This document shows positions 11,282 through 29,714 of a DNA stretch of 64,000 nt, in pieces. Where the stretch lies: the NCBI GenBank assembly GCA_017557885.1, contig JAFYXV010000005.1:1-64000 (forward strand), written 5' to 3'. The notes under the pieces were generated by a model. That model had not been told where the DNA came from, did no database searches, and saw nothing but the letters and a program-made list of their open reading frames with translations. A program made the translations under genes and the position numbers. The stretch is from a bacterium. Lineage in GTDB: Bacteria > Auribacterota > UBA3054. Each line of letters opens with the position of its first letter. Positions within the stretch are counted from its first letter, which is position 1.

Positions 11282-11335
11282 TATGGTTTTTCCTTCCCTT
11301 TTCAGGGGGTTGTGATTAAAAAGGTTTTTCTTGCA

Positions 11336-11365
11336 AGTATAATTGGGGAACTTATTTTATCACAA
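11336..11365 (-). promoter_or_regulatory. Candidate promoter of the PEP-CTERM gene
   Basis: On the minus strand: TTGTGA (11360-11365), 18-nt spacer, TATACT (11336-11341). Just inside it (11314-11336) is a TTGCAA followed by an A5-CC-T5 element resembling the palindromic promoter spacers at 2397 and 9387, but without a matching -10. Confidence 0.45.
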
Positions 11366-11502
11366 TGTATTTCAAAACACAACATCGCATGTTTTTTCCC
11401 AGGAGGTCTTTCGCGTTAAAACGCCGCGGCAAGCGGTTTTAATATTTTGCGCTTTGTTTGGCGTTCCTTGAAATTTGGCGGCAGCCGCGAGGCTTTCCTA
11501 TT

Positions 11503-11511
11503 TGGTATAAT
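11503..11511 (+). promoter_or_regulatory. Extended -10 promoter of the STAS/PP2C/HATPase operon
   Basis: TGG directly followed by TATAAT (11506-11511), with no good -35; an extended -10 promoter. The same TTTGGTATAAT string precedes hppA at 58250-58260. The predicted transcript start is about 20 nt before the STAS gene ATG. Confidence 0.55.
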
Positions 11512-11536
11512 GTATAAAACTATCTTAAGGAGCTTT

Positions 11537-11836
11537 ATGACTTACGAGATCACATCTCCCGCCCCGGATCTGGCGATCCTGGTGAAAGGCCGGCTCGACA
11601 CGCTGACCTCCCCGCAACTGGAAAGCGAACTTGAGCCTCTGCTAGGGAAAGCCGGCAGTCTTACCATTGACATGTCAGGCGTGGATTATCTTTCCAGCGC
11701 CGGTCTGCGCTTGATCTTAACGCTGCAGAAACACTTTAAAAAAGAAGGCGGCAGCTTCAAGCTCCGCAATATCCAGCCCGGAGTCATGGAGATATTGCGC
11801 ATGACCGGTTTCCTGAAGATCCTCTCCGTCGAGTAA
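11537..11836 (+). CDS. STAS-domain anti-sigma factor antagonist (RsbV/SpoIIAA-like)
   Basis: 99 aa from ATG 11537, preceded by AAGGAG at 11527-11532. It is a single STAS domain with the conserved MSGVDYLSSAGLRLI motif; a Ser in this segment is the phosphorylation site in RsbV/SpoIIAA. Dephosphorylated STAS proteins bind the partner kinase and release its client. It is first in a three-gene unit with a PP2C phosphatase 6 nt downstream and a HATPase kinase after that, so all three elements of a partner switch are present. Confidence 0.92.
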   Translation: MTYEITSPAPDLAILVKGRLDTLTSPQLESELEPLLGKAGSLTIDMSGVDYLSSAGLRLILTLQKHFKKEGGSFKLRNIQPGVMEILRMTGFLKILSVE

Positions 11837-11842
11837 ACTTTT

Positions 11843-13705
11843 ATGCGCGGCACTTTTCAGCGTTGGCTTTTCCTTTTCCTGGCGGTCTCCTTCGCCGCTC
11901 TCTTTCTGCTGACTTTTTACATTCAGACCAGAGAGGCTTATTCCGATGCCGAGCACCTCATCCAGCTGCGATTGGAAGACGTGCAGAAACAGATCCGCAT
12001 CAGCGAAAACGCCGCGCGCACCATCCTTAACGTCTACAACGCCTCCGTGGCCAGCGACGTGCGCACGGTGGCTTATTTTTTGGAACGCTGCCCCGCCTAC
12101 GCCACCAACAGCTTCCTGCTGGAAGAATTAAGGGAAAACACCGGCTATGACGAGATCCACGTCATCAACGAGCACGGCATTATTGAAAACTCCGCGGTGA
12201 ACCCCGTTTTGGGCAGCCCGGAAAAATTCCTGGGCTTCAACATGCGGCTGCACGCCCAGTCCGAGCCTTTTTTGGAAGGCCTGAAGAAAAAGGATTTCGT
12301 ATTGGTCCAGCCTCCCCTGCCCAGGGGCATTGATCACAAGCTTTTTTTGTACAGCGGCGCTTCCCGAAAAGACGCGCCCGGCCTGGTCCAGCTCGGCGCT
12401 TCCGTGGACTTTTTGGAAGATTCGCTGGAAAACAGCCGCCTGGCCCAGCTCTCGCCCAGCCTGCGCGTGGGAACGAACGGCGAAATCCTTATCTGCAAAG
12501 GGGAAAAGATCATCGGGGCCGCCAGGACCGATTACGAAGGCCGCACCCTGACTTCCATAGGCCTCAGGCAGGATCTCATCTCCGCTTTCCTGCAAGGGGA
12601 CGGCGCTTTTGACGAGACCATAGAAGGCATTTCCTTCTACGGCCTGTACATGCAAACCACGGGGCTGACGCTTATCGGCGTCATGCCGAAATACGAGATC
12701 ACGCAAAAACGCAACGGCATGGTGCTTTTGCTGATCGCGACCTGCCTCTTTATGATTCTGGTGGTCTTCGTCGCTGTTTCCAAGCTCGTGCAAAAAATAG
12801 TGATAGACGGCATCGACCGCATCAACGTTTCCCTCGGCAAGATCACCGCGGGCAACCTGGAGGAAAAAGTCGAGGAACGCGGCTCTCAGGAATTCGACGA
12901 TCTCTCCAACGGCATCAACACCATGGTGGACGCCCTCAAAGGCGCCATCGCCGCGGAAAAGACCCGCTTGAACAGCGAGCTTGATTTCGCCCGGGCCGTC
13001 CAGGCCTCCGCGCTGCCCCAGCTCCACTCGGACTCCCGCTATGAGATCTTCGCTTCCATGGAGCCCGCCAAGGAAGTCGGCGGCGATTTTTACGATTTCT
13101 TCCAGTTGGACTCCTCCCGCCTCGCCTTCCTCATAGCCGACGTCTCCGGCAAAGGCATTCCCGCCGCCATGTTCATGATGAAAGCCAAGGCCCAGCTTAA
13201 ATCCAGCCTGCTCGCCAACAAGGGGCGGACCCTCGACCAGATCATCGCGGAAGTGAACGACAGCGTCTGCGAAGGCAACGACGCCTGCATGTTCGTGACC
13301 GTCTTCGCCGGCGTTCTGAACATGGACACCGGTTTGGTGGTTTATGTCAACGCCGGCCACAACGCGCCCGTCCTCAGGAAATGCGACGGCGGCGCCAGCT
13401 GGCTCCCGGTGGACAACGGCTTCGTCATCGGCGGCATGGACGGCGTGTCCTACGAAAGGCAAACCGTGCTTTTGAAAAAAGGCGACGGCCTGCTCCTCTA
13501 CACCGACGGCGTCACTGAAGCCATGAACAAAACGCACGCCCTCTACGGAGACGACAGGCTCATCTCTCTCATGGACGGGCCCATCATGCGCTCCGCGCCG
13601 GCCGATTGCGTTTTGAACGAAATAAAGGACGACGTGAAAAACTACGTCGACGGGGCGCCCCAATCCGACGACATAACCATGCTATTCCTCCGCTATCTAG
13701 GATAA
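11843..13705 (+). CDS. Membrane sensor PP2C (SpoIIE/RsbU-type) serine phosphatase
   Basis: This 620-aa protein has TM1 at about 6-27, an extracytoplasmic sensor region (about 28-285, likely dCache-type), TM2 from 293 to about 315, a HAMP segment to about 365, a short helix and a SpoIIE/PP2C catalytic domain (about 390-620). Metal-binding motifs are GGDFYDFF (413-420), DVSGKG (433-438), YTDGVTE (553-559) and a late DDIT. It should dephosphorylate the STAS protein encoded 6 nt upstream in response to an envelope or external ligand. Its start lacks a Shine-Dalgarno, so translation is probably coupled to the STAS gene. Confidence 0.92.
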   Translation: MRGTFQRWLFLFLAVSFAALFLLTFYIQTREAYSDAEHLIQLRLEDVQKQIRISENAARTILNVYNASVASDVRTVAYFLERCPAYATNSFLLEELRENTGYDEIHVINEHGIIENSAVNPVLGSPEKFLGFNMRLHAQSEPFLEGLKKKDFVLVQPPLPRGIDHKLFLYSGASRKDAPGLVQLGASVDFLEDSLENSRLAQLSPSLRVGTNGEILICKGEKIIGAARTDYEGRTLTSIGLRQDLISAFLQGDGAFDETIEGISFYGLYMQTTGLTLIGVMPKYEITQKRNGMVLLLIATCLFMILVVFVAVSKLVQKIVIDGIDRINVSLGKITAGNLEEKVEERGSQEFDDLSNGINTMVDALKGAIAAEKTRLNSELDFARAVQASALPQLHSDSRYEIFASMEPAKEVGGDFYDFFQLDSSRLAFLIADVSGKGIPAAMFMMKAKAQLKSSLLANKGRTLDQIIAEVNDSVCEGNDACMFVTVFAGVLNMDTGLVVYVNAGHNAPVLRKCDGGASWLPVDNGFVIGGMDGVSYERQTVLLKKGDGLLLYTDGVTEAMNKTHALYGDDRLISLMDGPIMRSAPADCVLNEIKDDVKNYVDGAPQSDDITMLFLRYLG

Positions 13706-13718
13706 AAAGGACTTTATT

Positions 13719-14129
13719 ATGAACGTTGCCGTGACTCTGCAATTTGCCGCCGATACGCAAAAACTTCCGGAAGTTTTGGATAAACTGGACACCAACCTCC
13801 TGTCCGCCGGCTGTCCGGAGGACGCCAGAACGCAGCTGGCCGTGGCCGCGGAGGAGATCTTCGTCAACATCGCGAGCTACGCCTACGAGGGGAAACAAGG
13901 CTCCGCCACCATCAACATAAAGGCCGACGCCCACAAGGCGACCATTTCCTTCGCGGACAGCGGCTTCCCTTACGATCCTTTGCAAAAAGAAGACCCCAAC
14001 ATCGAGCAGGCCGCGGAAGACCGCCCCATAGGCGGCCTGGGCGTTTTCCTCGTCAAGGAAATGTGCGACGAAGTGCATTACGAGCGCCGCAACGACATGA
14101 ATATCCTGACGCTCGTCAAAAAATACTGA
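13719..14129 (+). CDS. RsbW-like anti-sigma factor/serine kinase (HATPase_c_2)
   Basis: This 136-aa protein has the GHKL fold motifs: N box EEIFVNIASYAY, G1 box DSGFPYDP and G2 box GGLGVFLVK. The length fits stand-alone RsbW/SpoIIAB-type kinases. It would phosphorylate the STAS protein and sequester a client when the phosphatase is inactive. It follows the PP2C gene by 13 nt. No sigma factor gene lies nearby, so the client is either encoded elsewhere or not a sigma factor. Confidence 0.9.
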   Translation: MNVAVTLQFAADTQKLPEVLDKLDTNLLSAGCPEDARTQLAVAAEEIFVNIASYAYEGKQGSATINIKADAHKATISFADSGFPYDPLQKEDPNIEQAAEDRPIGGLGVFLVKEMCDEVHYERRNDMNILTLVKKY

Positions 14130-14242
14130 CACCCCCCTGTTTTCTGCAAGCGCTGAACAAAATACCCCCAATTTCATACAACGCTTGCACATTTTTGGCA
14201 TCTACTTGCCAAACACAGCTCGAAATCTGCCGATCCGCTTTT

Positions 14243-14275
14243 CGACAAATCTGGAATTGAATTCCAGATTTGTCG
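14243..14275. repeat. 33-nt perfect palindrome between convergent genes
   Basis: Arms CGACAAATCTGGAATT and its exact complement flank one G. It sits in the 222-nt gap between the convergent RsbW-like and VWA genes. No T-run follows on either strand, so it is not a classical terminator, but it could block convergent transcription or bind a dimeric protein. Confidence 0.9.
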
Positions 14276-14351
14276 CAAGGACTTTGTATTAAACAACGGA
14301 AAACAAGCTTGTTATAAAAGCGGCTGCCAACAACTTTTTCTGGGCGCCGAT

Positions 14352-15326
14352 TCATTCCACTTCGCGGAATTCCCCTTTCCCGTGGGAGGCCACTCTTTTT
14401 AAAAAGGCGCAGCCCCTCTCCGCTTTTTCCCTTCTCTTTACGCTCCCGTCCCTAGCCGGCCTGTAGGCGATGGCGTTTATCTGCGTGGCTTTCTCCCTTC
14501 GGCTTTCGTCGATCAGGGCCATTATCCTTCTTTCGTGGACGATTTCGTCTTCCCCCTGCAGGTACGGCGGATCGTCGCTTATCAGGACCACCGCGTCGGG
14601 CTTCAGATTCAGAGCGAACTCCAGCGCTTTAATAGGAGTTGAGCCGCTGGTATCGGGGTCGTTGCCGCGATTGACTTTCATCTCCTTTGCTAGCCAATCG
14701 GACAATTCTCTTTTGGCGCTCTTGGTGGCGAAGCAGAGGTTCGTTTTGAAAGGAAATTTGCCGTCGGTGAACAAAACGACGTTGAAGAGCGTGTCCGGGT
14801 GGAAGAGCTCGACTGTTTTCTCCGCCTCTTTCCTGACCGCTTCGAATACGCCCTTCTGAACGATAGAAGAGGAGGAGTCCACCAGGATGACGATCGACCG
14901 GGCCGCGATCCTCTGCCCCAGGAACTCTATCTCTCCCCAGCCGTCGCCGCCCTTCGGTGCCTTTCCCAATCCGCTGTTCCCCAGGGAAAAAGAGAAGCTG
15001 TCGCTAAGGCTTAATCCTTCGCTTTCCCTTTTGACATCCGGCTTGGCGATTTCCGGCACCGGAAGCGCAAGGCTTCCCGCGTCGCACTTGGCGGCGAGCT
15101 TCAGATTCTTCGCCATGCTCTGCCCGTAGGAGGCCGCCTTCTTGCACAGCAGCCTGTGCTTCAACTCCCTGGCCTTCAGTTTCGGCCCCACCGCCTGGGC
15201 TGTGAAAAAGGGCTTCGGCGGCCGCACGGCCCGATAGACCACTATCCCTCCCGCCACGAGAAAGAGGGCCAGATGAAGCCCTACGCTCACAATAAGGCTG
15301 CCGTAGCGCGAAAAGTCAATCTTCAT
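14352..15326 (-). CDS. VWA-domain protein with a TonB-like N-terminal helix
   Basis: This 324-aa protein has a single N-terminal transmembrane helix (about 11-31) and a VWA domain (about 143-310). MIDAS residues are visible: DSSSS at 150-154, Thr230 in GSTPI and Asp251 in VLISDD. The helix carries SVGLH (Ser14-x3-His18), the same SxxxH spacing that TonB uses to couple to ExbB/ExbD, followed by a Pro-containing periplasmic linker. It is the last gene of a TPR-TPR-ExbB-ExbD-ExbD operon and overlaps the second ExbD by 11 bp. This suggests a force-transducing protein with a VWA head instead of a TonB C-terminal domain. That mechanism is inferred. Confidence 0.85.
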   Translation of the reverse strand: MKIDFSRYGSLIVSVGLHLALFLVAGGIVVYRAVRPPKPFFTAQAVGPKLKARELKHRLLCKKAASYGQSMAKNLKLAAKCDAGSLALPVPEIAKPDVKRESEGLSLSDSFSFSLGNSGLGKAPKGGDGWGEIEFLGQRIAARSIVILVDSSSSIVQKGVFEAVRKEAEKTVELFHPDTLFNVVLFTDGKFPFKTNLCFATKSAKRELSDWLAKEMKVNRGNDPDTSGSTPIKALEFALNLKPDAVVLISDDPPYLQGEDEIVHERRIMALIDESRREKATQINAIAYRPARDGSVKRREKAERGCAFLKRVASHGKGEFREVE

Positions 15327-15756
15327 CAGAGCAATTGAAAGTCACGTTGGTTAGCCCGGCCTTGTGGCAGCAGTCCAGGACCAGCGCGATCCTTTCGTGC
15401 AGCGCATCGTCCGCGGCGGAAATGGAGATGAGAGCAGGGATCTTCGCGCCCCGGGAGGCCGCCTGGAAGCGCATTAGGGTCTCTGCTAGTTCTGTGAGTT
15501 CCCGGCTCTTGGCCGGGACAAGCGTCTGTCCGTTCAAAACGACCGCTCCCTCCTCGTCAACTTCTATGACCTGCTCGTCCGGCATGACGACCGCTTCCGC
15601 TGCCCGGCCTTCCCCCGGAAGCGAAAACCCCAGGTCCCCTTCTGTTTTGTTCAAAGAGCAGGCGGACATGAAATAGATCAAAAGCAGAAACGTGCAGTCT
15701 ATCATGGAGGAAATAGGAAAGCTTATCTTGCCGGTTTCTTTTTTATTGATCCTCAT
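15316..15756 (-). CDS. ExbD/TolR-family protein (second copy)
   Basis: 146 aa: short cytoplasmic N-terminus, one transmembrane helix (about 15-33) containing SMIDCTFLLLIYFM, then a periplasmic domain. The helix Asp (SMID, residue 19) is the proton-pathway residue of the ExbD/TolR family. The start ATG overlaps the upstream ExbD stop as TGATG. Two different ExbD subunits with one ExbB recur in PVC-type clusters. This copy is more divergent than its upstream partner and has several extra cysteines. Confidence 0.88.
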   Translation of the reverse strand: MRINKKETGKISFPISSMIDCTFLLLIYFMSACSLNKTEGDLGFSLPGEGRAAEAVVMPDEQVIEVDEEGAVVLNGQTLVPAKSRELTELAETLMRFQAASRGAKIPALISISAADDALHERIALVLDCCHKAGLTNVTFNCSDED

Positions 15757-16166
15757 CAGCTCTCCTCATAGACGGAAAAGATTATTTTCGCCAAGCCCGC
15801 TTCCGCGCAGAGCTTCACGAATTTTTTCGTGACCTGGCTCTTGCTTCTTCGATCGATCCTTAAAAGCACCGTGCCCTTGGGCGTCGTCTTCGCGAAAGCT
15901 TCCAGCTCAGATTTTGCTTCCTCTATTTCGACTTTTCTCCCGTTGACAAGACAGCTCTCATCCCTTAGGATCGTCAGCGCGCAGAAAGCTTCCTCGCCTT
16001 CCCTTTTCCCGAAGTTCTTTACTTCCGGAAGCTCCAGCTCTTCCGGCGTGGAAAGGTTCTGCATGGTGGCGCTGCACATGAAGAAGATGAGAAGCAGAAA
16101 GACCATATCGATCATGGGCGCCATGTCCAGCTCACACTCCGCTTTCTTTTTCCTTGGCGGCCGCAC
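15756..16166 (-). CDS. ExbD/TolR-family protein (first copy)
   Basis: 136 aa from GTG 16166, preceded by a strong AAAGGAGGAG Shine-Dalgarno. A longer ATG frame would overlap exbB by 125 bp and add a meaningless basic leader, so GTG is preferred. It has a basic N-terminus, a transmembrane helix with MAPMIDMVFLLLIFFM (Asp in MID is the proton-carrying residue) and a periplasmic TolR-like domain. It overlaps the ExbB gene end by 35 bp. With ExbB it should form a proton-driven motor in the inner membrane. Confidence 0.9.
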   Translation of the reverse strand: MRPPRKKKAECELDMAPMIDMVFLLLIFFMCSATMQNLSTPEELELPEVKNFGKREGEEAFCALTILRDESCLVNGRKVEIEEAKSELEAFAKTTPKGTVLLRIDRRSKSQVTKKFVKLCAEAGLAKIIFSVYEES

Positions 16167-16935
16167 TTCTCCTCCTTTTCGGTTTTTCCTTTTCCTCTTC
16201 TTCCTCCAGGCCCAGCTTGACCCTGACTTTTTCCCTTGCCAAGCCCGCTCCCGCATACACGTCGATAAGTTCCGTAACGCGGGCCAGCAGCTCCCGCTCC
16301 CTGATGTCGAAACGGCTCTTCAAAACAAAGAAGGAAACCATGGCCGGAATGCCGACTATAAGTCCTGCGGCGGTGGTCAGCAGCGCTTCCCCGATGTCGC
16401 CGGCCAAAAGCTCCGGCTTGCCCATGCCGCCCAAACCGATCTTTGAAAAAGCTTTTATCATGCCGCTTACCGTCCCCAACAGACCCAGCATCGGGGAGAG
16501 CGCCGCGATGGTGGAGAGCAGGTTGAACCAAAACTGCATCGCGATGCTTTTGCCCTCCCATTTTTCCAAGACCGCCTCTTCCGCCTGCGATCTCTCTTCC
16601 TTGTCGAGGGGATACTTCAGCTTTTCTATGCCCGGCGCCAAAACCAGCGCCAGAACGCTTTTGCTGAGCGCCAAAAGATCAAGCGCGGCTTTAAGGTCCC
16701 TCTTATAGAGCGCGGCCTCCAACCGCTCCGGAAGTCCTTTGGGAACAAACTTTCCTTTGCGCGTCTCGAAGAAACTGTAAACCGTGAGCCAGACTACCAC
16801 GCAGGAGCAAATGGCCAGGGGATACATCAAAGGCCCGCCCGTCTTGAAAAGCCCCAATGCGGTGGTGCTAAGCGATTCCTCTTCCCCGAATGCGGAAAGA
16901 GCGGCGAAAACAAAACAAACGATCAAAAACTTCAC
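16132..16935 (-). CDS. exbB: MotA/TolQ/ExbB proton-channel family protein
   Basis: 267 aa: signal-peptide-like start, transmembrane helices at about 36-57, 130-155 and 180-205, and the family core NLLSTIAALSPMLGLLGTVSGMI and GEALLTTAAGLIVGIP. It forms the ion channel that powers ExbD and the TonB-like partner. The C-terminus is a Lys/Arg/Glu-rich tail. It overlaps the upstream TPR gene as ATGA. The symbol denotes family, as TolQ is equally possible; the SxxxH motif of the VWA protein favours the ExbB side. Confidence 0.9.
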   Translation of the reverse strand: MKFLIVCFVFAALSAFGEEESLSTTALGLFKTGGPLMYPLAICSCVVVWLTVYSFFETRKGKFVPKGLPERLEAALYKRDLKAALDLLALSKSVLALVLAPGIEKLKYPLDKEERSQAEEAVLEKWEGKSIAMQFWFNLLSTIAALSPMLGLLGTVSGMIKAFSKIGLGGMGKPELLAGDIGEALLTTAAGLIVGIPAMVSFFVLKSRFDIRERELLARVTELIDVYAGAGLAREKVRVKLGLEEEEEKEKPKRRRSAAAKEKESGV

Positions 16936-17771
16936 GGCAGCAGCTCCTCGGTGTAGGTGTTTATCAGGTGCGTCTTGGTATAGCGGTCTTTAATTTCCAG
17001 CCAGCGCAAAATAAGCTTCCTGTGCCGGCGGAATTCGACTTCCCTATATTCGTTGGTCAGTATCCCGGCCAAGCGGAAGGCCGTTTCCTGATCCCCCGCT
17101 CTCAGGGCGCAGACGCTCCCTAAAAAAAGGCAGTCCGCATCGACCTTCCTTTCCAGCGCGAAAAACATAGGAGGAGGGAGAAGATAAAAGAGCGCGTTCC
17201 TGAAATCCTCCTCCCGGTACAAGATGCGGCCCATATAGTAGTGCCAGAGCGTCGCCGATTCTTCCTCTCCCTTTTCCCAAGCAAACTTTTCCAAGACTTC
17301 CCTGGCTTTTTTGTGATCTTTGGTCTTCCAATGGCAGATGCCCAGATACAGCCCGGCCGCTTCTTCTTTGCTTTTAACGAAATAGCGCTTGGCCTCCTGG
17401 TAGCGGGCGCAGTTGAAAAGCAATTTCCCGTAGGCGAAATACGGCGCCTCCGCCCCGCCGGGCCAGTAAGAACCCCAGGCGTAGAGCTCCCACAATTCTT
17501 TCCCCCGGTCCAGCGCTCGCTTCATTTTCGGCCCCCGGCGGTAGCTTTTTTCCGCCAATTCCGTAAGTTCCACAGGATCGCTTAATCTCAGCTTCGTCAC
17601 CTGCTCCTTTTTGGCGCGGCACTTCATAAGGGAGCCGTCTTTAGCGTACCTTTCGTAAACGATCGCGTTCTCTTCGCGTTCCAAAAGCCGTCCGCTGAAA
17701 CTCTGCCCGGACTGCAGCGTCAGCCTGATAGGCAGCATAACTGACAAAAACAAAAGGTACGGTCTTCTCAT
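16932..17771 (-). CDS. Exported TPR-like protein in the ExbBD-VWA operon
   Basis: 279 aa from ATG 17771, which overlaps the stop of the upstream TPR gene (ATGA); an upstream in-frame ATG would add 14 residues lying inside that gene. The N-terminus is a short signal peptide (RRPYLLFLSVMLP). A small beta-rich region (about 15-65) precedes helical repeats of TPR type (about 85-260; YFAYGKLLFNCARYQEAKRY and similar). No catalytic motif is visible. It is probably a periplasmic scaffold for the motor encoded immediately downstream. Confidence 0.7.
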   Translation of the reverse strand: MRRPYLLFLSVMLPIRLTLQSGQSFSGRLLEREENAIVYERYAKDGSLMKCRAKKEQVTKLRLSDPVELTELAEKSYRRGPKMKRALDRGKELWELYAWGSYWPGGAEAPYFAYGKLLFNCARYQEAKRYFVKSKEEAAGLYLGICHWKTKDHKKAREVLEKFAWEKGEEESATLWHYYMGRILYREEDFRNALFYLLPPPMFFALERKVDADCLFLGSVCALRAGDQETAFRLAGILTNEYREVEFRRHRKLILRWLEIKDRYTKTHLINTYTEELLP

Positions 17772-20272
17772 AAATATCCCTTTTCCTTGGCTTCTTTTTC
17801 CGTGGCGGCCCAATCGTTCGTCCTGCCCAGCGCCTGAAAACAGACAAGGCTCTTTTCATAGGCCTCTTTCACCGCTTTCTTTTCCCCCTGGTACATGACG
17901 TAGACCCGCTGGTAGTAGCCCAGCGCCTCGCCGTATTTCTTTCCCGCGATATAGCAGTCTCCCGCCAGCAGAAGCAAGGCGGCTTTTTTCTCCGGAGGAA
18001 GGCCCTTCTGCCCCAGAAGCGCCAGAAACTTCTGCAGCGCCTCCTCCGTCTTCCCTTGATTGAAGAATGATCTGCCCTGCAGTTCGTCCCTGCGGTAAAG
18101 ATCCTCTATACGCTGGTAGGACTCCTCGCCTTCCAAAAGATAAGCCTCCGCCTCGGCGTAGCGCGCCTTTTCCACGCAACGTTCGGCCAGGCAGAGCCAG
18201 CCTTCGGAAGCGGCTGGATCCTTGGGGAATTCTTCCGTCAGATACTTCGCCAATTTTTCCGCTTCGCCTCCTTGCTTTTCCTTTGCCAGAATGAGCCGGC
18301 GCCTCAGGCCCTCCGGCCCCAGCGTCTGATATTTCAGCTTTCCCAACCCGGCGTCGTCTTTCAAAAACAAGGAGATCTTGGCATAGGCTCCCGTTTTGCC
18401 TTTTTCCAGTTCCAGAGCCGCCTCTTTTAAAAGCGCTTCCTTATACGCCCCGGCGTCCTCCGCAAACTGAAGGCCTGCCGTCAGCGCCCCCAACGCTTCG
18501 CCTTCCGCAAGCTCGTCCTTGGTCCTCAGCCAAAGTTTCCAAGCCGCGCTCCTGGCTTTTTCCTTTTCTCCCAGGATCCGGCAAGAACAAAGATAAGCGC
18601 TGAGGGCTTCGCCCCGGAAGCCTATCGTCCCTTCCGCAAGCAGGTAAGGCTCCAATAGTTCCATAGCGAGCCTCGGCCTTCCTAATACCTCGTAAATTTC
18701 CGCCGCTTTCAGAAGCGCGTAGCAGGCGAAATTGTCCGGCTTCTCTTTTTCCTGCGGCAGATTCCCTCTGTAAGCCGCCAGCGCTTCCGTAAGCTCCCCT
18801 GTGGCTCCCAGGGCGTCCCCTAAGGTGTTCTTCACCTCTTTTAGGTTATCGTACTCGGGGTAGCGCTCCAAAACCGCTCTCAGGGCCTTCTGGGCCTCCA
18901 AATAGTCCTCCCTGCGGTAGAGAATGGCCGCCAAACGGAACTCCACGTCCGCCAGGTGCGAATTCTTGGGATATTTTTGCTTGAAAGCGGAAAATGTCGC
19001 TTGCGCTTCCTCGTCCAGCACCTGATAATACGCCAGCATGCCCTTCCAATACATTGCCTCTGCCGACAGCTTATGCTCTTCCCCGAAAGCGGCGAGCCAG
19101 GCTTCCGTTTCCGCGAGGGCCGCCTTCTCTTCGCCCAGGAAGCCCAGGGCGCAGGCCGCGTACAGTTTCGCTTCCCCCAATAATTCGGAGGAAGGATATT
19201 TTTTGGCAAACTCCAGAAACCTATCCCGCGCCCTCTGGTATTCTGTGGCCCGCAGGGCGCCCTGGGCCGGCAGCAGCGCCAGCGCTTCCAGTTCATCCTC
19301 TTTCAGCTTTTCCCTTAAAAGCTCCGCCACGCCCCTTTCCAGACGGTCCAGGTATCCTCCCTGCAGACAGGCGTAGCAGGCTAGCTTTTTCAAGCCAACC
19401 TTCACGAAATCGTTGGTGGTTGTCCTTATGCCTTCCTCACAATAGACCGCGCATTCCGGATAATAGCAGGCATCGTAACAGGCCCTGGCCAATCTCGCCA
19501 GTCTCGCCTCGCCGCAGGAAGCTTTGTCCGCCAGACGGTAAGCGCTAAGGGCGCCGGAAAAATTATTGCTCATATAAAGAACGTCCCCCATTCTCAGCGC
19601 CAGATAATTCCTTAAGGACGCGGAATCCTCTTTTTTGTTCAGCGCCAGGCCTTCCCGCAGCCACGAAAGCGCCGCGTCCGCCTTCCCGATTTCCAGCAAA
19701 CACCAGGAAAGATTAAGCGAAGAAAGCGCCCGGAATTTTTTCACCTCCTTCACTTCCTCCCAATAGGGCAGCGCCTCTTCATAGCGCCCCGCTTTCGTCA
19801 GGGACAGCGCCAGATTCGCTTTCACTTCCGCCGCGTCGCCAAATCCTTCTTGCAAAAGATTTCGGAAAGCGTCCGCCGCGATAAGATAATGCCCGAGCTC
19901 CATCTCCGCCATCCCGAAACCGAAACGCGCGTTCTTTGCTTCCGAAAAGGCAGGATACTCTTTCCCCGCCTTGGCAAACAGATCGGACGCTTCCTCGAAA
20001 CGCTTTATCCTGTAGGCCGCCAATCCTCCGAAATAAGTCATGCGGGGAAAATAGTTCGTCATCTCCTCCTCTTCCCCGTAGCGCGCCAGAAAAGTCCGCG
20101 CCGCAAAAAAGGCGTTCGTCGCCTCTCCTCTTTTCAGCGAAGCGTAAGTAAAACGAAACAGCCCCGCCGAATCAAGCTCGTCAAGCTCTCCGCCCGCGGA
20201 GGAGTATCCTAAGACCAAACAGAGCCACAGGATGCCTGTTTCGGCAGCGATTTTAATTTTCTGACCGCACAT
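17768..20272 (-). CDS. Large exported TPR-repeat protein, first gene of the ExbBD-VWA operon
   Basis: This 834-aa protein has a signal peptide (about 8-27) followed by tetratricopeptide-like helical repeats along almost the whole chain, for example ALSAYRLADKASCGEARLA and EAQKALRAVLERYPEYD. It resembles the YbgF/CpoB and BamD-type periplasmic TPR scaffolds of Tol systems but is much longer. The start has GAGGA upstream. It lies 48 nt after the GH2 gene stop on the same strand, so it may be co-transcribed or use a promoter in the AT-rich TATATATA just upstream. Function inferred from operon only. Confidence 0.8.
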   Translation of the reverse strand: MCGQKIKIAAETGILWLCLVLGYSSAGGELDELDSAGLFRFTYASLKRGEATNAFFAARTFLARYGEEEEMTNYFPRMTYFGGLAAYRIKRFEEASDLFAKAGKEYPAFSEAKNARFGFGMAEMELGHYLIAADAFRNLLQEGFGDAAEVKANLALSLTKAGRYEEALPYWEEVKEVKKFRALSSLNLSWCLLEIGKADAALSWLREGLALNKKEDSASLRNYLALRMGDVLYMSNNFSGALSAYRLADKASCGEARLARLARACYDACYYPECAVYCEEGIRTTTNDFVKVGLKKLACYACLQGGYLDRLERGVAELLREKLKEDELEALALLPAQGALRATEYQRARDRFLEFAKKYPSSELLGEAKLYAACALGFLGEEKAALAETEAWLAAFGEEHKLSAEAMYWKGMLAYYQVLDEEAQATFSAFKQKYPKNSHLADVEFRLAAILYRREDYLEAQKALRAVLERYPEYDNLKEVKNTLGDALGATGELTEALAAYRGNLPQEKEKPDNFACYALLKAAEIYEVLGRPRLAMELLEPYLLAEGTIGFRGEALSAYLCSCRILGEKEKARSAAWKLWLRTKDELAEGEALGALTAGLQFAEDAGAYKEALLKEAALELEKGKTGAYAKISLFLKDDAGLGKLKYQTLGPEGLRRRLILAKEKQGGEAEKLAKYLTEEFPKDPAASEGWLCLAERCVEKARYAEAEAYLLEGEESYQRIEDLYRRDELQGRSFFNQGKTEEALQKFLALLGQKGLPPEKKAALLLLAGDCYIAGKKYGEALGYYQRVYVMYQGEKKAVKEAYEKSLVCFQALGRTNDWAATEKEAKEKGYL

Positions 20273-20320
20273 ATATTCCTCATATATATAACGGTCGCGA
20301 AAACGAAAAAGTTGCGCGAA

Positions 20321-23455
<3,135 letters not shown>

Positions 23456-23535
23456 TCAAACCGCGCCGCACCGCCCCGTTTGACTTTCAAACTAAGAAGT
23501 GCTAACATATCTCGCACAATTTGATTTTGAAAAAC

Positions 23536-23612
23536 GCGCCCGTGGCTCAATTGGATAGAGCGTTTGGCTACGGACCAGAAGGTTAGGGGTTCGAGTCCCT
23601 TCGGGCGTACCA
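23536..23612 (+). tRNA. tRNA-Arg (ACG)
   Basis: 77 nt with encoded CCA. The acceptor stem GCGCCCG pairs with CGGGCGT (one G-U). The D-arm is GCTC/GAGC. The anticodon stem TTTGG/CCAGA encloses loop CTACGGA with anticodon ACG. The T-arm is AGGGG-TTCGAGT-CCCTT. Read by eye, but all four helices form. Confidence 0.96.
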
Positions 23613-23619
23613 TCTTTTT

Positions 23620-23648
23620 CCGCCGGAGATTTTCTCCGGCGGTTTTTT
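23620..23648 (+). terminator. Rho-independent terminator after tRNA-Arg
   Basis: 10-bp stem CCGCCGGAGA/TCTCCGGCGG with a 3-nt T loop, followed by six T. It starts 7 nt after the tRNA. Confidence 0.93.
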
Positions 23649-23661
23649 ATTTATTGCGCTG

Positions 23662-23910
23662 TTTCAAATTCGTGGCGCAGTGTGCCTCAAATTCAGCAAA
23701 GCAAGCCGAAAACAGTTAAACTCTTGATTACACGCAACTTCAAATTCGGCACACAGTGTGTGCCGAATTCAAAAAGTGCTTAACACATTGAAAACACGGC
23801 ATTTCAAATTCGGCCCACAGTGTGGCGCGAATTCAGCAAAAGAGGCCAAAACCGTTAACTTATTGATATGTAGTTATTTCAAATTCGGCACACACTGTGT
23901 GCCGAATTTA
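23662..23910. repeat. Array of four 27-nt palindromic repeats in two tandem ~140-bp composite units
   Basis: Four hairpin-forming elements occur at 23667-23693, 23743-23769, 23807-23833 and 23882-23908. Each has two 13-nt arms around one base; elements 2 and 4 are perfect (arm AATTCGGCACACA) with centres G and C, while 1 and 3 carry mismatches. Each is preceded by TTCAAATTC. Centre spacing is 76, 64 and 75 nt. The sequence after element 1 (AGCAAAGCAAGCCGAAAAC, ending CTTGAT) closely resembles that after element 3 (AGCAAAAGAGGCCAAAACC, ending ATTGAT), so the array is a duplicated pair. It fills the gap between tRNA-Arg and the DUF1016 nuclease gene; no convincing gene lies in it. Confidence 0.93.
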
Positions 23911-24039
23911 ATTTTCTTGCTTCTTTGTCTCTTTTTTCCTACACAAAATTACCGACATGGATGACTTGATATTTTTTGGCATTTCATACAATGGGGATAG
24001 ATGATCGTTTTTTAGCCCTCATACAGGAGTATCGCACAT

Positions 24040-25065
24040 ATGAAATCACCAACAGAACCAATCAACGACAAAACTACAGAGGCAATCTATACTTCCATAA
24101 GATCCTTTGTCATTAACGCTCAAAACAAAATTTATTCTGCTATTAATTCTGCTATGGTTACTGCTTATTGGGAAATAGGAGAACAGATATACAAAGTATG
24201 CGGAGAAAACGATAGAGCTGAATATGGTCAAAACATACTAAAATATCTTTCTGACAGGTTAATCGCAGAGTTCGGCAAAGGGTATACGGTGCGAAATTTA
24301 CGAGCAATGCGTCAATTTTATTGTTGCTTTAAGTTTCGACATAAGTTGTTTGCTGAACTCAGTTGGTCGCATTATCGTTTGCTAATGAAGATCACAGATA
24401 AAACCGCTCGTGATTTCTACACAGAGGAATGCGTCAAGGCCGCCTGGAGCGTTCGGCAGTTGGAACGGCAGATCAACACGATGTATTATCAGCGGCTTCT
24501 CGCGAGCAAAGACAAAGATGCCGTTAGAGCTGAAATACAAAGAACCGAGCCAAAACCGGAATATGAAAAAGTCGTCAAGAATCTTTATGTCATGGAGTTT
24601 TTACAAATAAAGCCTGACACCAAAGTTTATGAGGAGGAAATTGAACAAGCCTTGATCGACCATTTGCAGCAATTTCTTTTGGAGCTTGGACGCGGTTTTT
24701 CACTTGTCGCCCGTCAAAAACGTTTTACGCTGAACGGACAGGATTTCTTTATAGATCTGGTGTTTTACAACTATATCCTGAAATGTTTTGTCCTGATCGA
24801 CTTGAAAACAACCAAGCTCACGCATCAAGACTTAGGACAAATGCAAATGTACGTTAATTTCTACACAAGAGAATTGATGAACGAGGGCGACAATCCTCCC
24901 ATCGGAATAGTGCTGTGCGCCGAAAAAAATGACGCTGTTGTCAAATATACCTTGCCCGTAGATAACAACCAGATATTCGCGTCAAAATTTTTGACCTGCC
25001 TTCCTACGGAAGAAGAGCTGAAGAGAGAATTGCGCCTGGATTCGTTTATAAAAATTGAGAAATAA
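24040..25065 (+). CDS. DUF1016/YhcG-family PD-(D/E)XK nuclease
   Basis: This full-length 341-aa member has the N-terminal DUF1016_N helical domain (about 12-165; AYWEIGEQI, LSWSHYRLLM, AWSVRQLERQI) and the C-terminal YhcG_C nuclease domain (about 180-335). Putative catalytic residues are Asp239 in FFIDLVFYN and Asp254-x-Lys256 in VLIDLKT, followed by QMQMYV. The start has AGGAG at 24025-24029, spacing 10. The gene is more AT-rich than its neighbours and stands alone on the plus strand between minus-strand genes, which suggests acquisition. It directly follows an array of palindromes at 23662-23910, probable substrates or regulatory sites. The family is linked to mobile DNA and defence, but its role is poorly defined. 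Confidence 0.9.
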   Translation: MKSPTEPINDKTTEAIYTSIRSFVINAQNKIYSAINSAMVTAYWEIGEQIYKVCGENDRAEYGQNILKYLSDRLIAEFGKGYTVRNLRAMRQFYCCFKFRHKLFAELSWSHYRLLMKITDKTARDFYTEECVKAAWSVRQLERQINTMYYQRLLASKDKDAVRAEIQRTEPKPEYEKVVKNLYVMEFLQIKPDTKVYEEEIEQALIDHLQQFLLELGRGFSLVARQKRFTLNGQDFFIDLVFYNYILKCFVLIDLKTTKLTHQDLGQMQMYVNFYTRELMNEGDNPPIGIVLCAEKNDAVVKYTLPVDNNQIFASKFLTCLPTEEELKRELRLDSFIKIEK

Positions 25066-25070
25066 AAACA

Positions 25071-26237
25071 CTATCGGCTGCAGATCTCTTCCACCATGTG
25101 GACAAAGTTTTCTTTGCCGGTTTTGATGTTGAGGGAGACCTTGAGGTAGTAGACGGGAGGGGGATTTAATTCTAATCCGGCGCGCTTTGAAAAGCGCACG
25201 GCGTCTTTTTCGGTAACGAGAATGGCCTGGCAGTCGAAGTTTTTGGCGGTCTCGTAGATCTTCTCTATCTCATAGCGCATGAAGCGGTGGTGATCGGCGA
25301 AGAAGCGCTTGGCGTTTATCTTTGCGCCGTTCTTTTCCAGGATATTGACGAAACCTTCGGGCTGGGCGATGCCGGTCACGACCATGATGGGAAGGTCCTT
25401 GAGAAGGGAGACGGGAGATTCCTTGTCGGTGTGGACGCTGATTAGTTTGTCGGGCTCGTACTGGCAGGTCAGGATGTCGGCGTTTTTATTGTAAAGACGG
25501 ATGTCGGCGACGAGGTCCTCGTATTTCTCTTCCGTTAAGTTTTCGGATTTCGTGATGAAGATGTGGTCGGCCCTTTCCAAGCCTTCTATGGGCTCCCTTA
25601 GGAGGCCGGCGGGCAGGATCCTACCGTAGCCGAAGGGACAGTTGGCGTCAACAAGAACGATGTCTTTCTGGCGGCGCATTCTCAAGTGCTGCATGCCGTC
25701 GTCTAAGATGATGGTGTCCACGCCGAATTCCCGCATGGCGTAGCGGGCGCCCCGCACTCTGTCGGGATCGGTCACGACCACGACGTTTTTTAGCTCCTGG
25801 GCGAGCATGTAGGGCTCGTCGCCCGCGATCTTCGGGGAGAGCAGAAGATTCTTGCCGTCGCAGACGACCTTGGTCTTGTTGCTGAAATCCTTGTGTTTAA
25901 GCCTGAAGCGCAAACTTGGGGAATGGGATTTGTAGCCACGGCTCACGATGGCGACTTTTCTTCCGCCCTTGGAGAGCGCCTGGGAAAGCAGCGCGACAAC
26001 GGGCGTCTTGCCGGTGCCGCCCACGGTGATGTTGCCGACGCTTATGACGTAGCAGCCGGGCCAGTAGCGCTTGCAGTAGCCCTTTTTGTACATGGCGTTG
26101 CGAAGGGAGACGATACCGCCGTAAATTTTGCCGAGGACAATGAGGATGGGCCAGACTATGTAGCGGCGCCAGGTGGTGTCGTTACCGGAAATAAGTCTTT
26201 TCCATTTCTGCTCTCTGGAGAGTTTGTTTTTTCTCAT
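25071..26237 (-). CDS. lpxK: Tetraacyldisaccharide 4'-kinase
   Basis: A 388-aa LpxK, which phosphorylates the 4' position of the lipid A disaccharide precursor at the inner membrane. An N-terminal hydrophobic segment (about 26-42) precedes the P-loop GNITVGGTGKTP. Other family motifs are SRGYKS, ILDDGMQHLRM and GYGRILPAGLLREP. It ends a housekeeping run and overlaps coaB as ATGA. Its presence implies a lipid A-containing outer membrane. Confidence 0.95.
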   Translation of the reverse strand: MRKNKLSREQKWKRLISGNDTTWRRYIVWPILIVLGKIYGGIVSLRNAMYKKGYCKRYWPGCYVISVGNITVGGTGKTPVVALLSQALSKGGRKVAIVSRGYKSHSPSLRFRLKHKDFSNKTKVVCDGKNLLLSPKIAGDEPYMLAQELKNVVVVTDPDRVRGARYAMREFGVDTIILDDGMQHLRMRRQKDIVLVDANCPFGYGRILPAGLLREPIEGLERADHIFITKSENLTEEKYEDLVADIRLYNKNADILTCQYEPDKLISVHTDKESPVSLLKDLPIMVVTGIAQPEGFVNILEKNGAKINAKRFFADHHRFMRYEIEKIYETAKNFDCQAILVTEKDAVRFSKRAGLELNPPPVYYLKVSLNIKTGKENFVHMVEEICSR

Positions 26238-26878
26238 TGCTTTTTAGAAGCGGATTCGGCTGCCTCTATGAGTTTTTTGGCGACGGTCGCTTTGCTGACA
26301 AGACCGCAGCGCTCCTCTTTCCCGTCGGGGAAAAGGAAGACGGCCCTTAATTTTTCGCTGGCGAAACCGGCGTCGGATCTGGAAACGTCGTTTGCTACGA
26401 TCATGTCGAGGCCTTTCACGAACATTTTCCGTTTAGCGGAAGCAAGGATGTCGTTTGTCTCAGCGGCGAAACCGATGACGAAGCGCTTGCCCTTCTCTTT
26501 GGCGACGCCTTTAAGGATGTCTTTCGTGCGGACTAATTCCAGGACCGCTTTCTCGGCGATCTTGTGCTCTTTCTGTTTCAGTCTTTTCGCTGGCTTGAAA
26601 TCGCTGACGGCGGCGGTCATGATGAGGACGTCGCATTTAGGGAATTCTTTCACAATGGCCTCATACATGTCCTCGGCGGAGACGACGGGAATGAATTTGC
26701 AGCCCTTGGGCGGTTTTAAATTCACGGGCCCGCTGACCAGAACGCACTCATAGCCCCGCTTTACCGCTTCCTTGGCGACTGCGAAGCCCATCTTTCCGGA
26801 GCTGGGGTTGGAGAGGAAGCGCACCGGGTCGATGTATTCCCTGGTCGGTCCAGCGCTGACTAAAAACCTTAATTTCAT
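26234..26878 (-). CDS. coaB: Phosphopantothenate-cysteine ligase (stand-alone CoaB)
   Basis: 214 aa from ATG 26878, which overlaps the coaC stop as TAATG; longer in-frame extension would run into coaC. Motifs: [21 protein letters not shown] (a nucleotide-binding start typical of CoaB), [15 protein letters not shown] and ANDVS. It joins cysteine to 4'-phosphopantothenate in CoA synthesis. In most bacteria this domain is the C-terminal half of a CoaBC fusion; here it is a separate, overlapping gene. A frameshift artefact is unlikely because each part has an intact terminus and its own ATG. Confidence 0.93.
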
Positions 26879-27402
26879 TACTGTTTCAGCGCTTTTATAA
26901 TTTCTTCCAAAGGCGCGAGACGACCCAGGCCGCACTTTCCGCAGGCCAGTTCGCCTTCCGTAGGATAGATGACTTCGACGCCCCTGTCTTTCAGCTTTTG
27001 GATGTTTTCCTTGGTGGCGCTTGCTTCCCACATGCCGTCGTTCATGGCGGGCGCCACGATCTTCCTGCCTCTGTGGGCGAGGATGACGGAGCTGGGGCCG
27101 TCGTCAGCGAAACCGTAAGCCATCTTGGCGATGAAATCGGCGGAGGCCGGCAGCACTATTACCGTTTCGCAAAGCTCGGCCAGAGCTACGTGCTCGGGGC
27201 GCCAGTCCGCGGGCTGGGCGAACTGATCGATATAGACGGGATTCCTGGAGAGCGTTCTAAAGGTCACTTCGCCGACGAATTCCGTCGCGGCTTTCGTCAT
27301 GGCGACGTGCACGTTGAAGCCTTCCTTTACGAGAAGGCGCGTGAATTCGCAGGCCTTGTAGGCCGCTATGGATCCTGTGACGACTAAAAGAATGTCTTTC
27401 AT
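26878..27402 (-). CDS. coaC: Phosphopantothenoylcysteine decarboxylase (stand-alone CoaC)
   Basis: A 174-aa flavoprotein of the HFCD family, which decarboxylates phosphopantothenoylcysteine to phosphopantetheine. Visible are the FMN-binding start TGSIAAYKA, the catalytic His in [15 protein letters not shown] and the substrate-clamp segment [10 protein letters not shown]. The gene ends at the overlapping coaB start and begins in a 4-bp ATGA overlap with gmk, so the whole stretch is one operon. panC, an earlier step of the same pathway, is at 54.2 kb. Confidence 0.94.
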
Positions 27403-27965
27403 TTGTTTCCTCCGTAGATGAGGTCCTCAAGTTCGTTTGCGGCCCGGTCGACGTCGTCGTTCACGACGACGTGGTCGAACCAGACGCTCTCGGCCATCTC
27501 GCTCTTGGCTTTGGCCAATCTTCTTTCTATCACTTCCTCGCTGTCGGTGGCGCGGCCTCTTAATCTTCTTTCCAGCTCTTCAAAGGAGGGCGGCATAATG
27601 AAGATAAGGTGCGCTTCCGGCATTTTTTCATGCACGGATCTGGCGCCCTGGACGTCGATGTCCATCAGAACGTAGTAGCCCTCGCTGAGCTGCTTTTCCA
27701 CCGCTTCCCTGGGCGTTCCGTAATAGTTGCCGTGCACCGTGGCGTGCTCCAGAAAGCGGTCTTCTTTTAGCCAGGTCTGGAAGGTTTCCACTGTCAGGAA
27801 AAAGTAATCCTTGCCCTCCGTTTCGCCGACTCTCGGCGCTCTGGTGGTCGCGGAGACGGAGAAGCGCAGATCATCGTGCCTGGCCATCAGCTTGGCTACG
27901 ATGGTGGATTTTCCCGCGCCGGAAGGACCGGTCAGGACAAACGCTCTGCATTTGGGATCAGCCAT
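27399..27965 (-). CDS. gmk: Guanylate kinase
   Basis: 188 aa, the usual length. The P-loop is GPSGAGKST; SVSATTRAPRVGETEGKDYF carries the GMP-binding residues; DIDVQGARSV follows. It converts GMP to GDP. The start overlaps the rsfS stop as TAATG, and the end overlaps coaC. Confidence 0.96.
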   Translation of the reverse strand: MADPKCRAFVLTGPSGAGKSTIVAKLMARHDDLRFSVSATTRAPRVGETEGKDYFFLTVETFQTWLKEDRFLEHATVHGNYYGTPREAVEKQLSEGYYVLMDIDVQGARSVHEKMPEAHLIFIMPPSFEELERRLRGRATDSEEVIERRLAKAKSEMAESVWFDHVVVNDDVDRAANELEDLIYGGNK

Positions 27966-28477
27966 TACTGCTTTTTCGTTTTGATAGTCTTTTTGGCGGC
28001 GGGCTTTTTGGTTTCTTTCTTGGCGGCCGGTTTTCTTCCGGGCTTTTTGGCGGCGGGCTTTTCTTCCTCGGGTTCCTTGTCCTTTTTGGGCGCGGCTTTC
28101 TTGGCCGGGACCAGATCCTCGAAGAAGGTTTCCCTGTTGGCCCAGATCTCCTCGATGTTGTATTCCGCCCTGGCTTCTTCCGTGAAGAGGTGGACTATAA
28201 CGTCGACAAGGTCGACCGCCACCCAGTTGTTGCCGGAGAGCGTTTCGTCCGCGCTGTAGGGCTTGACGCCCATGTTTTTCAGCTCTTTCAGAAGGTTCTG
28301 GCCGGCCGCCTGCATCTGCCTTTCGTTCCTGACGGAACCGACGATGAAGAAGTCCGTGATGGGAGAGAAGCCTCTGACATCATAGATCTTGATGTCGCTG
28401 ACCTGCTTGTCTTCCAAAAGCTTGCGGTAGGTGAAAACGATCTCGGGGAGGTTGGGGTTCTTTGCGGTTTTTGCCAT
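27965..28477 (-). CDS. rsfS: Ribosomal silencing factor RsfS with a histone-H1-like tail
   Basis: 170 aa. Residues about 12-122 form the RsfS/Iojap domain (VSDIKIYDVRG, DFFIVGSVRNERQM, WVAVDLVDVIVHLFTEEAR, YNIEEIW). RsfS binds L14 on the large subunit and blocks subunit joining in slow growth. The last 45 residues are almost entirely Lys, Ala and Pro (AAKKPGRKPAAKK type), like histone H1-like tails, which is not normal for the family and could bind nucleic acid. It starts one nucleotide after the HAD-NadD gene, and a nadD-rsfS order is common in bacteria. Confidence 0.93.
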   Translation of the reverse strand: MAKTAKNPNLPEIVFTYRKLLEDKQVSDIKIYDVRGFSPITDFFIVGSVRNERQMQAAGQNLLKELKNMGVKPYSADETLSGNNWVAVDLVDVIVHLFTEEARAEYNIEEIWANRETFFEDLVPAKKAAPKKDKEPEEEKPAAKKPGRKPAAKKETKKPAAKKTIKTKKQ

Positions 28478-28478
28478 G

Positions 28479-29714
28479 TTATTTTCCTGTATAAAGTTTT
28501 TTCGCTTGGATCAGTTTCCAAACGCTGGAAATAATATCTTTCTTATCTATCTTACCTTCTTTCAGTTTTTGACGCAAAGCCGTGGAAGAAACATCCGTGG
28601 CGGGACCTTTTATCAGAAGGTCCCCCGGCTTTATCTTCGCCGTTTCTCCCTTGCGCTGGTAAACGGCTAGCTTCGCCAGTTTTTTTATTTTTTGGGGTTC
28701 GCGCCAGGTATTGAAACCCAAGTAATTGTCGGAGCCCAAAAGGAAGTAGAGCTCGCAGGGCGCGAATCTTTTTTTCAGCGTTTGCAGCGTTTCCACGGTG
28801 TAGGAAACGCCGCCTCTTTTTAGTTCGCAGCGCTCCAACCTGAAGGCGGGGTCTTTTTTCAGCGCGGCGTTTATTAGCTCGCAGCGGACTTCGTTGTCAG
28901 CGTAGATCCTGCCTTTTTTGTGCGGCGCCTGGTAGGCCGGCACAAAAAGCAGAAGATCGAGTTTCAATTGCTTTTTCGCCCTTCTGGCGATCGCTAGGTG
29001 CGTCTTGTGGACAGGGTCGAAAGAGCCGCCGAAGACGCCGATCTTCAGTTTCGCCCGACGAGGCTTCAGAAGTTTCGCGATGTCACGGGGCTTTTCGGCG
29101 TAGAGTTCCGGCTTGTAGGGCGCGACGTCGCTTTTGTCCCGGAAGCCCCATTTGACCGCCATCACGGGGATACCGGCGTTCCTGGCGGTCTGCATGTCCA
29201 CTTCGGAGTCTCCTACGTAGATCGCTTCCTCAGATTTGGCGTCAAGCAATCTCAGGGCTTCCCAGACCGCGTCAGGAGCGGGCTTCCTACTCCTCCCCTC
29301 CTTGTCGCCCAAGGCGACGTCCCAAAGCGCGGGGAAAAAGCGCTTGGCCAGTTTTCTGACCGCACGCTCGGGTTTGTTGGAAACGATGGCGATCTTGAAG
29401 CCAAGGTCCCTTAGTTTTTTCAGCTCTTCTATGATCCCGGAATAGGGCCTGGTCTTTACGACGGTATGCGCCGCGTAGTAGCGGCGCATATCCGCCAGCA
29501 TTTCCGAATATTCGGGATCGCTCAGGCCCAGTTTGAGCGAACGCTCCACGAGTTTTCCCACGCCGTTGCCAACGTAGCGCCGAGCCTCGCCGAGCGTGAT
29601 AGGAGGCCTATTATGTTTGCTCAGGGCGAAATTGACGGCGGTCTGGAGATCCATTAGGGTGTCAAGAAGCGTCCCGTCAAGATCGAAGACCGCGCATTTG
29701 ATGGTCTTGCCCAT
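28479..29714 (-). CDS. nadD: HAD phosphatase fused to nicotinate-nucleotide adenylyltransferase
   Basis: 411 aa from ATG 29714, overlapping the upstream stop as TGATG; a GTG 9 nt earlier is possible. Residues about 1-215 form a Gph-like HAD hydrolase with all four motifs: DLDGTLLDT, SNK, KPAPD and VGDSEVDMQTA. Residues about 222-411 form NadD, with GGSFDPVH at 229-236 and SSTALRQ near the end. NadD makes nicotinate adenine dinucleotide in NAD synthesis; the HAD half probably removes phosphate from a small metabolite. The fusion is uninterrupted, with only a short linker. Confidence 0.93.
   Translation of the reverse strand: MGKTIKCAVFDLDGTLLDTLMDLQTAVNFALSKHNRPPITLGEARRYVGNGVGKLVERSLKLGLSDPEYSEMLADMRRYYAAHTVVKTRPYSGIIEELKKLRDLGFKIAIVSNKPERAVRKLAKRFFPALWDVALGDKEGRSRKPAPDAVWEALRLLDAKSEEAIYVGDSEVDMQTARNAGIPVMAVKWGFRDKSDVAPYKPELYAEKPRDIAKLLKPRRAKLKIGVFGGSFDPVHKTHLAIARRAKKQLKLDLLLFVPAYQAPHKKGRIYADNEVRCELINAALKKDPAFRLERCELKRGGVSYTVETLQTLKKRFAPCELYFLLGSDNYLGFNTWREPQKIKKLAKLAVYQRKGETAKIKPGDLLIKGPATDVSSTALRQKLKEGKIDKKDIISSVWKLIQAKKLYTGK

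Follow-up and report, generated by a model that had tools for sequence, protein, structure and literature searches.

The question raised by this locus is whether a small palindrome array between a tRNA-Arg gene and a DUF1016/YhcG nuclease gene belongs to that nuclease, and if so in what capacity. In the window, by which we mean the whole 64,000-nt stretch of DNA that was analysed, four odd palindromes of 27 bp are found between the terminator of the tRNA and the nuclease gene (Table 1), as a sequence-only reading of the locus had described. Its further details were likewise borne out: elements 2 and 4 are perfect and differ in the central base alone (G or C), which makes them mutual reverse complements, elements 1 and 3 have diverged, TTCAAATTCG precedes or overlaps all four elements, and the array is indeed a duplicated pair of approximately 140 bp, in which positions 23662-23711 recur at 23802-23851 (offset 140 nt, 78% identity) and positions 23704-23772 at 23843-23911 (offset 139 nt, 77% identity).

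Table 1. Features of the tRNA-Arg/DUF1016 locus, in window coordinates.
Feature	Coordinates	Strand	Remarks
tRNA-Arg(acg)	23536..23612	+	junction adjoining the array/DUF1016 insert
Intrinsic terminator of tRNA-Arg, stem	23620..23642	+	
First copy of duplicated pair (elements 1 and 2)	23662..23772	+	offsets 139-140 nt
Palindrome element 1	23667..23693	.	10/13 pairs, diverged
TTAAN4TTG in array spacer	23716..23726	+	again at 23780-23790 and 23855-23865; direct reading
Palindrome element 2	23743..23769	.	13/13 pairs; arms same as in-gene palindrome of Ruminococcus bromii (L089)
Second copy of duplicated pair (elements 3 and 4)	23802..23911	+	offsets 139-140 nt
Palindrome element 3	23807..23833	.	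11/13 pairs
Palindrome element 4	23882..23908	.	13/13 pairs (14 with a further pair included); identical to L089 in-gene palindrome
DUF1016/YhcG gene, 341 aa	24040..25065	+	DUF1016_N aa 20-152; YhcG PD-(D/E)XK nuclease aa 177-331; D-L-K aa 254-256
Position of the in-gene site, aa 98-107 (KFRHKLFAEL), predicted loop	24331..24360	+	palindromic in most homologues, not here

The array and the adjacent gene

Odd 27-mers with at least 12 of 13 pairs occur three times in the 64-kb window, twice in the array and once, without relation to it, at position 14246; base shuffling yielded one in 64 kb and none in 2 x 400 kb. The solitary case (14246-14272) is a perfect palindrome, CAAATCTGGAATTGAATTCCAGATTTG, that is unrelated to DUF1016. 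Elements 2 and 4 have predicted single-stranded DNA folding energies of -13.3 and -14.2 kcal/mol (z scores of -6.9 and -8.7, respectively). The only Rfam families recognised in the window were SSU rRNA and tRNA, the array giving no match; the 5' part of a 16S rRNA gene occupies positions 1-243 on the minus strand, where it is cut by the window edge.

The gene that follows is a full-length member of its family, with the DUF1016_N and YhcG_C PDDEXK domains passing their curated cut-offs in profile searches (148.4 and 186 bits, respectively) and with an intact catalytic motif. The adjacent enzyme is thus, as the sequence-only reading had it, of another fold than RAYT, namely a PD-(D/E)XK nuclease and not a HUH Y1 transposase. 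In a structure model based on 30 homologues (mean pLDDT 76, pTM 0.46), the segment encoded by the palindrome in homologous genes forms a predicted loop between helices 84-96 and 109-116, which could tolerate tandem copies of 12-13 aa. Comparison of the model with the PDB gave weak matches alone, mostly to PD-(D/E)XK-type nucleases such as MGME1, and the N-terminal domain had no credible match in the fold comparison; a PDB search with the protein sequence gave no match either. PADLOC lists the family as a candidate defence system only (PDC-S02).

Distribution in the genus

Within the source genome and seven congeners, the array motif is confined to the tRNA-Arg locus. Other palindromes of the DUF1016 type were found at only two to three further places in approximately 800-864 kb of the source genome. 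An apparent second copy of array and gene on contig C6 (L041, 49.5 kb) was rejected as a redundant contig, being 100% identical to window positions 9536-29535 across the 20 kb that were compared.

The locus itself differs between congeners. In G004 and G007 the array is accompanied by genes for DUF1016 proteins that are 90% and 88% identical to that of the window, and the spacer motif TTAAN4TTG is, on direct reading, largely kept in their arrays. The G005 contig ends within an array of five units. G003 presents an empty site, where the tRNA and its terminator are followed by lpxK with no insert. G002 has two array units and no DUF1016 gene; approximately 6.7 kb of other, unassigned genes follow, and then a 96-bp repeat and lpxK (L065:6544-13001; L085:1-577, G002:C22). 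Read directly, the repeat is a perfect copy of the tRNA 3' end and terminator that bounds the insert, within which no integrase was recognised. No duplicated tRNA 3' end was found at the right junction of the insert in the window. The empty site of G003 and the gene-less array of G002 indicate that the insert is a young addition at the tRNA junction and that array and gene can be parted. G006 has another locus resembling tRNA-Arg(acg) (G006:C148:30645-30857, L086), preceded by sequence similar to that upstream of the window tRNA and set in a different gene context.

Further arrays accompany DUF1016 genes elsewhere in the genus. On G004:C75 (L230), five palindrome copies spaced approximately 100 bp apart lie 5' of a DUF1016 gene, and on contig C7 of the source genome (10254-10451) three copies approximately 98 bp apart precede a broken one. 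The same contig holds an orphan pair, GATTTGGCAACAASTTGTTGCCAAATC, 96 bp apart (G000:C7:131595-131717; L508:11595-11717), which differs from the array at C7:10254 by a compensating change and near which no trace of DUF1016 was found.

Palindromes in and next to DUF1016 genes

One genome from each of 84,980 species was scanned with the pattern AATTCGNNNCACANTGTGNNNCGAATT, for which the estimated number of chance matches is below one, and at least 117 stretches matched it. The matches listed, together with one viral contig, amount to 129. Of the matches listed, 98 fall within DUF1016 genes at a single site, the codons of the peptide I-R-x-T-L-C-x-E-L, whereas nine lie 5' of a DUF1016 gene (seven of them in the arrays of G004 and G007) and six belong to the arrays of G002 and G005, which lack the gene or are cut off. 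On direct reading, several of the remaining listed matches appear to be decayed DUF1016 remnants in which the palindrome is intact. Three apparent remnants from Collinsella (L110:912, L115:6340 and L157:443) carry the perfect palindrome AATTCGCGACACASTGTGTCGCGAATT and lie upstream of a small antitoxin-like gene. The NNN bases that the pattern leaves free were complementary at all three positions in 57 and at two of three in 40 of the 98 in-gene matches listed, where chance would give 1/4 per pair. Viral contigs searched by protein gave no DUF1016 match; searched by palindrome, they gave one contig, with weak similarity to DUF1016.

A sample blind to the palindrome was obtained by collecting DUF1016 genes by profile from 384 genomes, which gave 128 full-length, non-redundant genes. 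A palindrome with at least 11 of 13 pairs was found within the ORF of 79 of the 128 genes, compared to 3.3 after synonymous-codon shuffling, the thresholds (27 nt, at least 11/13) having been set after seeing the window and the main tests run on independent genes. With at least 12 of 13 pairs, the count was 45 versus 0, and in both cases related genes in the sample make the counts non-independent. The density of odd 27-mers at this stricter level was 0.372/kb in the genes and 0.458/kb in the 400 bp upstream, compared to a background of 0.041/kb. In-gene palindromes have gene-specific arms and fall nearly all at residues 90-140, and the site window exceeded the neighbouring window with a paired Wilcoxon p of approximately 1e-20.

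When the 450 bp 5' of the gene are included, 87 of the 128 genes have an odd 27-bp palindrome, above the coding null: 64 in the ORF only, 13 in both the ORF and the upstream region, and 10, the type to which the window gene belongs, upstream only. The remaining 41 have none with at least 11 of 13 pairs in the site or upstream windows. Homologous genes elsewhere thus do carry such palindromes, which strongly supports the coupling that the sequence-only reading had proposed. In most members, the loop codons of the N-terminal domain include between one and four 27-bp palindromes, all in frame, while in some the site is 5' of the gene, single or arrayed; in L130, L185 and L201 it lies a few tens of bases upstream.

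The identity of the arms is informative in this respect. Window element 4 recurs letter for letter as the in-gene palindrome of R. bromii L089, whose protein shares approximately 79% identity with that of the window when the palindrome codons are excluded, and the in-gene palindrome of L128 (approximately 77% identical) equals the TGG-type element found in G002, G004 and G005. Judged by sequence, the palindrome follows the protein subfamily, not the position, which suggests recognition by that protein. One further arrangement was found in G124 (L297:3015-4246), where two direct repeats of 65 nt (89% identity) flank a DUF1016 gene, each repeat containing the palindrome and approximately 30 nt more. 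A neighbouring gene there resembles a restriction-modification subunit.

Compensating changes in the arms

Covariation was assessed on 19 array elements from five genomes, 12 of them distinct. In these, pairing holds in 95.5% of pair cells, and covariation scores 0.258, compared to 0.080 after shuffling, with none of 500 shuffles reaching 0.258; shifting the pairing partner abolishes the signal. The outer AATT and the inner CACA/TGTG of the arms are nearly invariant, while the bases in mid-arm vary with compensation (GCA/TGC, TGG/CCA, TGC/GCA and GTA/TAC). The same holds across DUF1016 sites in general, where self-complementarity, the base (AATTCG) and the tip (CACANTGTG) are conserved and the mid-arm varies with compensation. 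Moreover, several arm types occur within one array, each perfectly paired. This argues that self-complementarity itself matters, whether through a hairpin, a cruciform or arm-to-arm correction, and since a single dimer specificity would not demand it, hairpin recognition or arm-to-arm correction is favoured.

The yhcG gene of Escherichia coli offers a familiar example. In K-12 it contains three in-frame palindromes 39 nt apart; a single perfect copy is found in the O157 and O111 alleles. In an allele of 92% identity, AATTGTGCAGACACTGTCTGCACAATT replaces AATTCGCCAGACAGTGTCTGGCGAATT through changes that compensate each other. Homology to K-12 yhcG ends at nt 406, at the edge of the third palindrome, in E. 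coli B and in many further strains, and the foreign sequence that follows is present in 713 E. coli genomes; in E. coli B C2566 (L465:2881-3302), the segment after the break is unrelated and includes an ORF of 101 aa annotated as 'transposase'.

Other gene families with the same kind of site

Scored in the same manner as DUF1016, in-ORF odd palindromes were found in 27 of 30 ORF6N genes (null 0.3), 23 of 30 RhuM genes (null 2.0) and 12 of 29 Bro-N genes (null 0), compared to 1 of 30 Fic genes. These palindromes are specific to their families (L344-L373, L374-L403 and L434-L463); CTTGAGGTCACAATTTGTGACCTCAAG, for example, encodes LRSQFVTS. KilA-N, considered as a further carrier, was ruled out, as none of nine loci had a palindrome apart from that of a neighbouring DUF1016 gene. 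The recurrence in ORF6N, RhuM and Bro-N means that the palindrome is not bound to the nuclease domain; it goes instead with families whose N-terminal domain is putatively DNA-binding.

Proposed role and alternative explanations

The link to the gene, the excess over what the protein code would give, the compensating variation and an in-gene position that has moved upstream in some lineages are established as sequence patterns, and they suggest that the 27-letter palindrome in or next to DUF1016 genes is probably a DNA site read by the gene's own product. For the array in the window, our preferred but tentative reading, to which we would give a probability of roughly 0.4, is that it represents an extragenic, multiplied form of this cognate self-site, bound by protein and most likely with a putative autoregulatory function. 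We infer binding by the DUF1016 N-terminal domain, which would contact its own palindrome either as a dimer on duplex DNA or on an extruded or single-stranded hairpin, and we infer autoregulation, in which binding in or before the gene would keep expression of the nuclease low, with the site acting as an operator or a transcription roadblock. Simple steric repression is not obvious at the window locus, since the array lies 130-370 bp 5' of the start codon and the search for a convincing promoter of the DUF1016 gene there found none.

A rather unlikely alternative is that the palindrome is a substrate, the nuclease cutting or processing the hairpin or cruciform so that gene and palindromes are copied, moved or recombined. 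The intact catalytic motif would fit such a role, as would arms that change in sequence yet stay paired, the arrays without a gene (in G002 and at C7:131595-131717), the L297 gene between its palindrome-bearing repeats and the directly read 96-bp duplication of the tRNA 3' end adjoining the G002 array. Genome-wide dispersal is lacking, however, a nuclease with a cut site in its own gene would damage that gene unless the site were protected, and sites of the same kind are carried by ORF6N, RhuM and Bro-N, to which no nuclease is assigned here. We consider it somewhat less probable still that an unrelated host or mobile factor targets or recombines the site, with the families merely hosting it in a permissive loop and quasi-palindrome correction keeping the arms perfect. 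That the coding segment is a predicted loop tolerant of tandem copies, that homology in E. coli B breaks at the edge of a palindrome and that orphan arrays exist are all compatible with such a factor, but the arms track the protein subfamily even where the site is outside the gene, and Fic and KilA-N are without comparable palindromes.

A hairpin formed by the mRNA of the gene itself, which the protein would bind or cut to control translation, would agree with the location of the sites in or 5' of the ORF, hence mostly in the likely transcript, and with the stable predicted fold, computed as DNA. Such an RNA should favour G-T mismatches on the coding strand, but these number 13 compared to 18 A-C and 54 others (pairs 2-12, best palindrome per gene, four families), and the innermost pair beside the single central base is kept, though impossible in an RNA hairpin. 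The missing G-U bias favours DNA over RNA, and with no Rfam family either, the RNA hairpin was set aside as very unlikely; the structured RNA partner for the nuclease suggested by the sequence-only reading is likewise not favoured. There is hardly any room left for coincidence, by which a conserved protein motif (I-R-x-T-L-C-x-E-L) would have chanced upon palindromic codons and the array at the tRNA would be unrelated. It is true that the fixed positions of the search pattern match the conserved peptide, but the palindromes vanish on synonymous shuffling, the free NNN bases pair as well, and the same palindromes occur in the non-coding arrays. A pure protein-motif artefact is contradicted by the shuffles, the NNN pairing and the array covariation alike.

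Beyond autoregulation by DUF1016, one may speculate, as a doubtful extension, that DUF1016, ORF6N, RhuM and Bro-N share a strategy in which a private, co-evolving DNA hairpin would be read by the gene's own product and serve, not as a plain operator, but as a self-recognition tag for mobility, self/non-self discrimination or nuclease control.

Implications

The DUF1016/YhcG nucleases are widespread and occur also in E. coli K-12. Should every gene of the family prove to have a cognate palindrome, its DNA target could be read from the genome, and the function would be directly testable by bringing purified YhcG together with its three 27-bp sites. That ORF6N, RhuM and Bro-N genes are built in the same way suggests that these proteins, often found with phages and restriction-modification loci, have a logic in common that has gone unnoticed. 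Frame-preserving palindromes with compensating variation in coding DNA would furthermore constitute a clean case of two codes on one sequence.

Comparison with known systems

No description of palindromes in DUF1016, RhuM, ORF6N or Bro-N genes was found in open-access full texts, and the palindrome in DUF1016-type genes is apparently undescribed. As to the DUF1016/YhcG family itself (PF17761 and PF06250; PDC-S02), the window gene is an ordinary, full-length member, distinguished by palindromes that are upstream of the gene and not in the ORF.

Rickettsia palindromic elements (RPEs) are palindromic DNA in frame within protein genes, as in DUF1016 genes, but they are longer and insert into a wide range of unrelated genes, whereas the DUF1016 palindrome is 27 bp long, occupies one position in particular families and has gene-specific arms. 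Intragenic operators and transcription roadblock sites of autoregulated DNA-binding proteins are similar, in that a protein whose N-terminal domain is putatively DNA-binding has a palindrome within its gene or ahead of it. The differences lie in the family-wide loop position, the tandem in-frame copies and the recurrence in four families, none of which, to our knowledge, has been described for operators; the DUF1016 site is a putative one, by sequence. The attP arm sites of tRNA-integrating elements resemble the array in being repeats beside a tRNA 3' end, and G002 adds the 96-bp tRNA-end duplication around array and cargo. In contrast to such elements, no integrase was recognised, and the motif recurs in or next to DUF1016 genes away from tRNAs.

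A further parallel is REP/RAYT (TnpA_REP), to which the sequence-only reading had likened the locus and in which palindromes with variable, compensating stems are likewise linked to a single-copy gene for a nucleic-acid enzyme. One half of this comparison stands, as palindromes are coupled to DUF1016 genes, at in-gene and upstream sites, across the family, while the other half, dispersal, does not, the motif occurring in the genus solely at the tRNA-Arg locus. Unlike REPs, the DUF1016 palindromes are not dispersed through the genome but lie mostly inside the ORF of the enzyme itself, and that enzyme is a PD-(D/E)XK nuclease in place of a HUH Y1 enzyme.
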